Shown here: piece after piece, positions 49,518 to 51,324 of the stretch | Numbering within the stretch: position 1 is the first letter of the stretch | How the letters are laid out: each line of letters begins with the position of its first letter | Origin: Oscillospiraceae bacterium | GTDB taxonomy: Bacteria; Bacillota; Clostridia; Oscillospirales; Oscillospiraceae | Length of the DNA: 64,000 nucleotides | Assembly (NCBI GenBank): GCA_009780435.1 | Contig: WRAB01000015.1 | Coordinates: forward strand, 1 to 64,000 | Direction: 5' to 3' | Position numbers and translations under genes: made by a program | The notes under the pieces: generated by a model | Told to the model about the DNA's origin: nothing | Databases searched by the model: none | Seen by the model: only the letters and a program-made list of their open reading frames with translations

Positions 49518-49557
49518 AAAAATTCCCCGCGAGGCAGGCCTCGCGGGGAATTTTTTA
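49518..49557. terminator. Terminator between msmK and the SUFU gene
   Basis: AAATTCCCCGCGAGG pairs with CCTCGCGGGGAATTT around a CA/GG loop, followed by T6. Used by both convergent genes. Confidence 0.93.
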
Positions 49558-50304
49558 TTCGCTTGCCGCCTCCAGCACACTGGGGCGCTTGATATCCAGC
49601 ACCAGCATATCTTTTCCCGCAGGGTGTTGCTCAAACTTCTCTAAGAGCACATCGGCATCGTTTTCAAGTTTATAGTTCATTTCATCCGCATAGAGAGGCA
49701 GCATCTGGTAGAAGATCACACGACTGCCGTCCGGCATTTCACATATCTGCGCCTCCGGGCCAAACTGGGCAGGCGGTGCAAGCACGATACAGCAAAGCTC
49801 CGTATTTTCTGCAAAAGATTCTCCGTTGGGGACCGTGTGGCCGTATCCGAGCCATGTATTGTTTTCAATGGGCAGCCGTGCCAAAATCTTGAGCCAACGC
49901 AAGGGCCAATACCAGTTTTCATGATTGGGGTGGTCGGGGTTATTTTCCGAATCCTCGTCATCGCCGCCGATAATCTCCAGATCGGCACGAGGCACCTTCC
50001 AATCCGGCGGCAGACAGATCATCAACTCGGCCCGCTCCAGCTTGTACGGGGCCATCTGTGACGGGATATTCATCCGATGGGCGCCCATGCCCATGGTCAC
50101 CAGGGTGTAGTAATTACGTTCCTCCGTCGGAGGAATGAGAACAATATCCACATGTATGTCAGGGGATATGATCTCGTGAAATACATTGTCAAATGCGCCG
50201 AAGTGTTTTGCTATGTGGGCGGCAATAACGGCCATTTCTTCCTCTGTGTACAGTTCTGGCAAGGGCATCTTCGGCTCTTTTTTCTTTCTGGAAAACCATT
50301 TCAT
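49555..50304 (-). CDS. Suppressor-of-fused (SUFU) domain protein
   Basis: A 249-residue protein with a basic start (MKWFSRKKKEPK) and the SUFU fold: HIAKHFGAFDNVFHEIISPD, VDIVLIPPTEERNYYTLVTM, GMGAHRMN, RAELMICLPPDWKV, WPLRWLKILARLP, HTVPNG and FYQMLPLYADEMNYKL. In bacteria SUFU proteins are known as immunity proteins of polymorphic toxins, though many are orphans. No toxin gene is visible here. The DUF1266 gene lies upstream in the same direction. The start at 50304 is not certain: AAAGGA is about 14 bases away and is buried in a stem; ATG 50379 in the same frame is an alternative. Confidence 0.88.
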   Translation of the reverse strand: MKWFSRKKKEPKMPLPELYTEEEMAVIAAHIAKHFGAFDNVFHEIISPDIHVDIVLIPPTEERNYYTLVTMGMGAHRMNIPSQMAPYKLERAELMICLPPDWKVPRADLEIIGGDDEDSENNPDHPNHENWYWPLRWLKILARLPIENNTWLGYGHTVPNGESFAENTELCCIVLAPPAQFGPEAQICEMPDGSRVIFYQMLPLYADEMNYKLENDADVLLEKFEQHPAGKDMLVLDIKRPSVLEAASE

Positions 50305-50307
50305 CAG

Positions 50308-50415
50308 AAAAAGTCCATTCCTTTCATTAACGTCTTTGGCACAAAAAGACCACGAAAAAGGAATGGACTTTTTGTGCATCAATTGTGGTTCCCCGTAGGG
50401 GGAACAATTGGCACA
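50308..50415 (-). promoter_or_regulatory. Leader RNA of the SUFU gene with three mutually exclusive helices
   Basis: On the minus strand three helices compete. P1: TGTGC with GCACA (50415-50411 and 50377-50373), enclosing CAATTG and GTTCCCC/GGGGAAC pairs. P2: GCACAAAAAG (50377-50368) with CTTTTTGTGC (50348-50339). P3: AAAAAGTCCATTCCTTT (50373-50357) with AAAGGAATGGACTTTTT (50324-50308), a perfect 17-bp stem that buries the ribosome-site candidate AAAGGA. The layout is that of a translational switch. Confidence 0.55.
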
Positions 50416-50456
50416 TCACAAAGGGTTTAGCGCGAATTTTGACGCTAATCCCCCTC

Positions 50457-51251
50457 CTAGTAAAATAACGCCTGCCGAAACGGGCTGTTTTCATTGTGCA
50501 ACAAATACCGCAGTGTGGCGTATATATCTGTGGAGTTGTTACCATATCCTATGGCACGGCCAATGACGTATCCCGCCAGATATTCCCGCCAATTTCGATA
50601 GACACGGATTGCGTTGTCAGCGGCGGACCGCATGAATTCCCAAGTCTCGCCCTCTTCTAAATAGCCCGCTTTTGTGCCGTAGCGGACAATCAACCCCACC
50701 CGCCCATAGTCCCACGCAGCGGTGGAGCTGACCCAGGATAGTTCCGTCTCGCTATAGCCCAAATCGGTCAGAACCTCTCCGGCGATCTGATAGCTATCCA
50801 ACCCCGAAATGATTCTCGGCACCGGGACATTCCACAGTCCAAACTCCTCTATCTGCTGGTCGGTTAAGCCCACTAGGTACTCTAACGCTTCTTTTTGAGA
50901 GACCAGATGGAGCCGCTTCCTCAATATGAGATTTTGATAGATGGGATCAGCCACAGGCGTATGCCCTGCCGCAATGGATAAATATTCGACCGCGTGTAAT
51001 GCCGCTTCCCGGTTGGTAATCCCCCACCATTCGTCCAATACCTTTACAGCCGTTTGTCGATCCGCTTTCACCTGAAATGTTCTGCATGACTCTAAGTTCC
51101 TGGTAAGCAATACCGCCCCAAAAGTTAGTAGCCTCTGTCGCTCCTGCGAAACGGGACTATCTGCTTCCAGTTGGCGTATTTTATTAGATTGCAGCACTGA
51201 AGTAATTCGTTTCATTGCAATTCTGTCAATCAGACCATAGTATTTCGACAC
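50457..51251 (-). CDS. DUF1266 protein
   Basis: A protein of about 264 residues, mostly helical. The C-terminal half carries the DUF1266 pattern: AAWDYGRVGLIVRYGTKAGY, EETWEFM-like EGETWEFMRSAAD, and NWREYLAGYVIGRAIGYG. The N-terminal half has a helical repeat region with LDEWWGITNREAALHAVEYL. I choose GTG 51251, which is 9 bases behind GAGG; a GTG at 51266 lacks one. DUF1266 proteins have no established activity and often occur near polymorphic-toxin immunity genes. Here it lies 150 bases upstream of a SUFU gene in the same direction. Confidence 0.85.
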   Translation of the reverse strand: MSKYYGLIDRIAMKRITSVLQSNKIRQLEADSPVSQERQRLLTFGAVLLTRNLESCRTFQVKADRQTAVKVLDEWWGITNREAALHAVEYLSIAAGHTPVADPIYQNLILRKRLHLVSQKEALEYLVGLTDQQIEEFGLWNVPVPRIISGLDSYQIAGEVLTDLGYSETELSWVSSTAAWDYGRVGLIVRYGTKAGYLEEGETWEFMRSAADNAIRVYRNWREYLAGYVIGRAIGYGNNSTDIYATLRYLLHNENSPFRQALFY

Positions 51252-51324
51252 AACAACACACCTCACTTCACATATGTAAATTTACCATAGTCTCCATCAT
51301 TTGTCCAACCGAAATAGGAAACAA

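Follow-up and report, generated by a model that had tools for sequence, protein, structure and literature searches.

A short, probably IS110-derived mobile element between the Shine-Dalgarno sequence and the start codon of a SUFU-domain gene

Translational riboswitches and RNA thermometers are built from mutually exclusive helices, the last of which ends at a ribosome site. An arrangement of this kind stands directly before a SUFU-domain gene in an Oscillospiraceae genome (assembly GCA_009780435.1, contig WRAB01000015.1, positions 1 to 64,000; this whole stretch of 64,000 nucleotides is called the window). A preliminary description, made from the sequence alone, took it for a candidate translational switch. 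The question raised by the locus is whether the conserved feature is a regulatory device of the SUFU gene, or whether the fold belongs to something that has come to lie there.

Architecture of the locus and fold of the RNA

The shared strand of the helices is denoted A and its two partners M and R, of which R contains AAAGGA. The features are as follows (coordinates within the window).

49555-50304, minus strand: SUFU-domain gene, downstream of the element (Pfam PF05076, 166 bits on a longer frame; ATG at 50302-50304)
50308-50449, minus strand: whole putative mobile element, ~142 bp, delimited by copy comparison and by the empty site at secY (outer left boundary approximate)
50308-50324, minus strand: R arm, the right end of the element, carrying AAAGGA (covariation; end type common to IS110 elements)
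50339-50352, minus strand: M strand (TGGTCTTTTTGTGC), the alternative partner of A (covariation and folding)
50357-50373, minus strand: A arm (AAAAAGTCCATTCCTTT), which pairs with R, or with M when extended into GCAC
50374-50414, minus strand: P2, nested hairpin GTGCCAATTG..CAATTGATGCAC (covariation in 56 copies)
50423-50452, minus strand: P1, the left-end terminal hairpin, GGGATTAGCG..CGCTAAACCC (fold, copies, left ends of insertion sequences)
50453-50458, minus strand: AGGAGG, presumed original Shine-Dalgarno (SD) sequence of the SUFU gene (from the sequence and the SD-like motif 5' of other copies)
50457-51266, minus strand: DUF1266 gene, upstream and co-directional (Pfam PF06889, 98.9 bits), the stop of which abuts the old SD

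The three strand-sharing helices of the preliminary description are all present on the minus strand, both by inspection and by folding. The upstream nested hairpin corresponds to P2. In the 10-bp helix GCACAAAAAG/CTTTTTGTGC, residues 50368-50377 pair with 50339-50348 (the same helix was also scored as 14 nt with 93% complementarity), and in the perfect 17-bp helix AAAAAGTCCATTCCTTT/AAAGGAATGGACTTTTT, residues 50357-50373 pair with 50308-50324, burying AAAGGA. The closing GUGC/GCAC of P2 competes with helix A·M. The repeat extends 5' beyond the three helices, through a further hairpin, to about 50449; this hairpin, P1, has its foot in the flank, and its counterpart in other copies, as well as in full IS110 elements, is AG[GT]TTGAA... 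The AGGAGG overlaps the TAG stop codon of the DUF1266 gene (50457-50459), and the element now stands between this presumed old SD and the SUFU start codon.

The 171-nt minus-strand RNA folds with an energy of -67.1 kcal/mol, compared with -40.6 ± 3.8 kcal/mol for 200 shuffled sequences, none of which was as good (z = -6.93). Conservation was followed in an alignment of 56 copies taken from match lists of 94 and 47 rows (these include double loci and reverse-strand echoes of the palindromes). Near-identical copies, weak copies, one copy with an insert (L015) and the CTATGC-type subfamily (L043-L048, the first copy of L084, and L086) were excluded by hand. Helix A·R is paired in 95.0% of the cells, with 58 double-sided changes (16.6 in shuffled alignments), and A·M in 87.3%, with 23 (5.8 shuffled). 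P2 is paired in 78.5% of the cells and shows 119 double-sided changes (40.9 shuffled); its inner stem reaches 92.4% and its apical part, as aligned, only 56.1%. Slid controls are far lower for all three helices. The mutually exclusive pairing proposed earlier is conserved and covarying in the 56 copies, and because P2, A·R and A·M all covary, an RNA role of the element is likely.

When R is left out of the folding, at least 6 A·M pairs form in 56/56 copies. With R present, A·M is worse than A·R by a median of 6.2 kcal/mol (range -4.1 to +15.4). The probability that AAAGG is unpaired then has a median of 0.021 and is below 0.1 in 40/56 copies and above 0.5 in 4/56. The hexamer GAAAGG in R is nearly invariant across copies. 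In the predicted order of folding, A·M forms first and A·R last. A kinetic sequence in which the site is open first and closed later would fit these folding predictions, and a purely mobile-element role of the fold fits them as well. At 25, 37 and 50 °C alike, A·R is the more stable of the two helices in the window copy, so that the suggestion of a thermosensor gains no support. A known RNA family was rejected as an explanation, as no Rfam family scored over its threshold (the best hit was 19.2 bits to a microRNA family with a gathering score of 249).

Copies of the repeat and their insertion sites

With a 201-base query, three long copies (100, 91 and 85% identity) and one fragment were found in the own genome, and a direct search of 60 relatives gave matches in 4 genomes, the own one included. 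A covariance model built from 7 copies, with 10 pairs showing double-sided change (2.3 in shuffles), has matches in 55 of the 300 genomes of the family, often several per genome (13 in G118, 11 in G271, 10 in G204 and 8 in G288). A pattern of M plus R, searched in one genome per species, yields at least 120 stretches that share the right end; among the matches listed these are mainly from Oscillospiraceae and other Clostridia, together with records of Pelotomaculum, Thermacetogenium, Dethiobacter and Synergistaceae. The phage and plasmid collections contain no match to a 161-base query, and a phage or plasmid origin was rejected on this ground; in viral contigs the first search pattern has 0 matches and the second has 3. 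These three IMG/VR contigs, classed as viral (L209-L211), carry an IS110-type end, with a transposase in L211 only.

Some members deviate from the common plan. A subfamily (L017, L043-L048) has a different left hairpin, e.g. TTTGCTATGCAAAAGCATAGCAAA; its copies sometimes follow the T-run of an apparent terminator, mostly do not lie at the usual distance from a start codon, and are perhaps a sister group with another target. Further odd members are L084 (1001-1109) and L086. At L015 (2932-3073) a 37-nt extra hairpin is found between M and R, adjoining the ribosome site, and in two copies of G118 (L269, L274) the P2 loop is enlarged by CTGCCTGTCGGCAGACAGG-type repeats. One pattern match in an Aminicenantes record (L153), with neither a start codon after it nor other parts of the element, is probably due to chance.

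Most copies follow immediately on an upstream gene or on its SD, and most run, in the sense orientation, right up to a start codon. The genes that follow include secY, enolase, cytidylate kinase, pgsA, parA, purH and fmt (named by reading the translations). They are unrelated and thus form no regulon. Base-pair covariation in relatives, which the preliminary description had suggested looking for, does exist, but in copies before unrelated genes and not before SUFU alone. Of the translational switch proposed for SUFU, the exclusive and covarying helices stand, whereas the specificity does not, and a SUFU-specific riboswitch was dropped because the copies precede unrelated genes. A SUFU-specific thermosensor is not supported either: no Rfam family matched, and the element precedes secY, eno-, cmk-, pgsA- and parA-like genes and many others. 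For the feature in the window, the best reading is a conserved fold belonging to a mobile element with its own ribosome site; any switching is conjectural.

The position of the copies is narrowly defined at both ends. After removal of flank duplicates 92 copies remain. In 59 of them an ATG is located exactly 3 nt past the end of R, the background being 0.02 per position, and 11 of the 92 have no ATG within 8 nt. The left side was analysed in 66 of these copies, since in the other 26 the left end was not recognised or the flank was too short. An SD-like motif is present in the 16 nt around the left end in 50/66 copies, compared with 5/66 for a control stretch 30 nt upstream, and the mean energy of the anti-SD duplex is -6.46 at the left end and -1.51 kcal/mol in the control (Wilcoxon p = 1e-11).

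The site before insertion can be seen at secY. A match to this gene is present in 16 of the 19 genomes of the genus of G011, and in 13 of the 16 the end of rplO (GAGGTGG or a close variant) and the start of secY are contiguous. In G011 the element lies between AGGTG and the secY start, splitting the rplO-secY junction; by eye, no target-site duplication is apparent at secY. Two genomes (G331, G333) have the right end alone, CGAAAGGAATGGACGTTTAGTATG or CGAAAGGAATGGTCATTTAGTATG, directly before the secY start. At cmk, the full element is present in G118 and right-end-like relics in its two genus mates. These relic right ends are possibly transposon-derived ribosome sites of essential genes. No empty site is shown for SUFU itself, whose homologues elsewhere are only 40-41% identical. 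The own genome contains, beside that of the window, five right ends GAAAGGAATGGACTTTnnnATG (four exact and one with one mismatch; control 0), three of which look like relics without the rest of the element. Leftover right ends seem to stay on as putative ribosome sites.

The solitary right ends in the own genome precede three other genes (C2:52835, C2:82606 and C6:78841), one of them substrate-binding-protein-like, and the relic right ends directly before secY and cmk starts are those at L226, L228, L240 and L241.

Relation to IS110-family elements

An IS110-type transposase lies upstream of 26 of the 124 right-end sites among the matches listed; many of the other sites are cut by contig ends. 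One such protein matches DEDD_Tnp_IS110 (PF01548) with 84.7 bits and Transposase_20 (PF02371) with 76.9 bits. The full IS110 elements occupy the same kind of site, in the order SD, element, ATG. Their left end is AG[GT]TTGAAA in 12/12 full copies with both outer ends readable among the matches listed, 10/12 of which have an SD duplex energy of -5 or lower outside this end, and their right end, GAAAGGnATGGTCAT, lies directly before a start codon. The left end AG[GT]TTGAA is found in 49/92 small copies, and the right end of the full copies is common to many of them. Taken as a family, the small copies have both ends in common with the full elements. The subtype in the window diverges: its ends, TTAGCGTCAAAA and GGACTTT, differ from the insertion sequence (IS) ends seen, its TAGCG-type left end occurs in 7/92 copies, and a full IS with exactly the ends of this subtype (TTAGCGTGAAAA / GGACTTT) was not found among the IS examined. 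MITEs of the IS200/IS605 type (with hairpin ends) and of the DDE type were both considered and rejected, as there are no inverted ends and IS110 transposases were discovered.

In the full elements the region before the transposase contains, on the strand shown, CACATAnnnAT followed by CTCACCTCC. The motif is borne by 24 of the 124 sites among the matches listed (one counted match, L130, has no ATG at the standard offset). The guide triplet equals the three bases of the element's own insertion flank, ahead of the ATG, in 20/24 sites (shuffled mean 2.3, maximum 10 in 10000 shuffles), several of which are related IS and hence not fully independent. An SD-complementary string lies within 60 nt after the motif in 23/24 sites. 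The string AAG[GT]TT corresponds to the element's own left end, i.e. the donor end, in 11/11 full copies; the twelfth is without the string. These strings match the pattern of target and donor guides of bridge RNAs, as given in the part of PMC11208160 that was available. By such matching, from which the roles of the strings are assigned, the full IS110 elements look RNA-guided, and an SD mimic in the candidate bridge RNA would be a direct reason for insertions between SD and ATG.

The window element, with its ~142 bp, has no room for a DEDD and Transposase_20 transposase. No target guide is seen by eye inside the small element, and the small copies of G118 are near-identical while their flank triplets differ. 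A profile search of the own genome gave no match to PF01548. This domain is over the cut-off in 14 of the 55 model-positive genomes (25%), compared with 84 of 300 overall (counted from the search listings), so the presence of the element is not associated with that of an IS110 transposase; no such transposase was found in the many-copy genomes G271, G288 and G206. A partner transposase in the present genome is usual for non-autonomous elements but not required. Draft metagenome assemblies (MAGs) lose repeats, which makes the absence of a transposase weak evidence. An IS110 element with a similar left end and a different right end is present in G238, from the genus of the 13-copy G118. The genome search with PF01548 also returned weak matches in Cas9-sized frames (about 1,420-1,510 aa), which we take to be RuvC-like cross-matches and not IS110.

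On these comparisons of sequence, the feature upstream of SUFU is probably a short mobile element that is non-autonomous and descends from the IS110 family, whose insertion sequences presumably move it in trans.

Proposed mechanism, alternatives and known systems

How such an element could be tolerated is a separate matter, for which we offer a tentative proposal that may well be wrong in part. The IS110 enzyme and the bridge RNA of a full relative would recombine the small element, the SD mimic of the bridge RNA directing it into the gap between the old SD and the start codon of a gene. The right end would then provide a replacement ribosome site, with AAAGGA about 11 nt before the ATG. During transcription, with P2 formed, A would pair with M and leave this site open; later A would shift to R and close it. 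In the proposal, the insertion is tolerated and translation tempered because the site is open early and closable later, so that the host gene, even secY, would be translated from young mRNA. After decay of the element the leftover ends would persist as ribosome sites.

The strongest competitor for the role of the fold, and a reading we regard as quite possible if short of probable, is that it serves mobility, as DNA hairpins or as a recombinase-bound RNA, with no role in translation. R is the transposon end itself and A its complement, selection can act on the structure of ssDNA or RNA at the ends, and the greatest number of double-sided changes is found in P2, which contains no ribosome site. 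Against this reading stand the near-invariance of GAAAGG in R and the constant spacing of 3 nt that separates most copies from the ATG, although a recombinase could equally require fixed ends; moreover, right ends alone persist as relics at the secY and cmk starts. It is unlikely that a different, unrecognised enzyme moves the small elements and that IS110 merely shares or has captured their ends. The lack of co-occurrence with an IS110 transposase across the 300 genomes, and its absence from the own genome, would agree with such an enzyme, but the small elements have the two ends and the target site of IS110 elements, and the guides of the latter match these very features; repeats, moreover, drop out of MAGs, and a partner is often lost.

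We consider it rather improbable that the element is a genuine cis-regulatory RNA class (riboswitch or thermosensor) with a regulon, its dispersal being ordinary regulon evolution. Such a class could have exclusive covarying helices with the ribosome site within one of them, and copies that are mostly sense-oriented and directly before start codons. It is at odds with near-identical copies (85-91%, loops included) before unrelated genes in one genome, with the tight empty site at rplO-secY, with ends common to IS110 elements, with the absence of an Rfam match, and with A·R being the more stable helix of the window copy over 25-50 °C. A coding role is very improbable. The preliminary description had noted that translation from an ATG at 50379 would place the helices in coding sequence, as an N-terminal extension of SUFU, and the frame is indeed open in the window copy. 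Across copies it is open for 26 codons in only 26/81, which is about the chance estimate of (61/64)^26 = 0.29. What the copies conserve is therefore not coding; furthermore, indels shift the frame between subfamilies, and the compensatory changes track pairing and not codons. A leader peptide or coding extension was rejected on these frame statistics.

If the preferred reading, a mobile element of IS110 descent that enters the SD-ATG gap, is true, translation start sites in general would be a further natural class of bridge-RNA targets. It would show a mobile element entering essential operons at a point where expression is expected to be killed, and bacterial genomes would gain new ribosome-binding sites from it. 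It would also caution that a conserved RNA structure ahead of a start codon may descend from a transposon instead of being a riboswitch, and that gene callers may place the starts of the genes concerned too far upstream. Full-length IS copies whose guides and flanks match could be natural test pairs for the programming of bridge RNAs.

IS110 elements, bridge RNAs and a fold that buries the ribosome-binding site in an IS110 transposase leader are already known. The open-access literature, to which the search was confined, gave no short IS110-derived elements at ribosome sites and no SD-mimicking guides. In comparison with translational riboswitches and thermometers, the present element is mobile, stands before unrelated genes, matches no Rfam family, and no ligand pocket is shown.

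The full relatives resemble the IS110 elements with bridge RNA or seekRNA, as presented in the accessible parts of PMC11208160 and PMC11187229, in their DEDD and Transposase_20 domains, in the long non-coding region before the transposase, in having no evident terminal inverted repeats, and in target and donor guides that match the flank and the own end. Unlike these, the window element lacks both a transposase and a target guide, and its site is the gap between SD and start codon, whereas the example targets in the accessible parts of those papers are REP elements. With MITEs and short dispersed repeats, as treated in the portion of the review PMC10969869 at hand, the element shares that it is short, non-autonomous, multicopy and structured, and related through its ends to an autonomous element; it differs in that, by eye, it has no terminal inverted repeats and its ends are asymmetric. 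A term search of that portion of the review gave 'IS110' 0 times and 'IS1111' only as an IS inserting into a MITE.

The closest precedent for the site is IS900 of Mycobacterium avium, an IS110-family element that, by the title of Doran et al. 1997 (as listed in the part of PMC8141618 available), targets translation initiation signals. In our case, an end of the element would give the host gene a new ribosome site, and a short derivative has been dispersed. IS900 is a full IS of actinobacteria, and its reported benefit is said to be expression of its hed gene. For the fold, the precedent is the 5'-UTR of the ISPpu9 transposase (IS110/IS492 family), where, according to the accessible part of PMC8450116, the structure buries the ribosome site and its weakening raises translation. 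In ISPpu9 it is the transposase itself that is regulated, whereas here the site concerned is that of a host gene.
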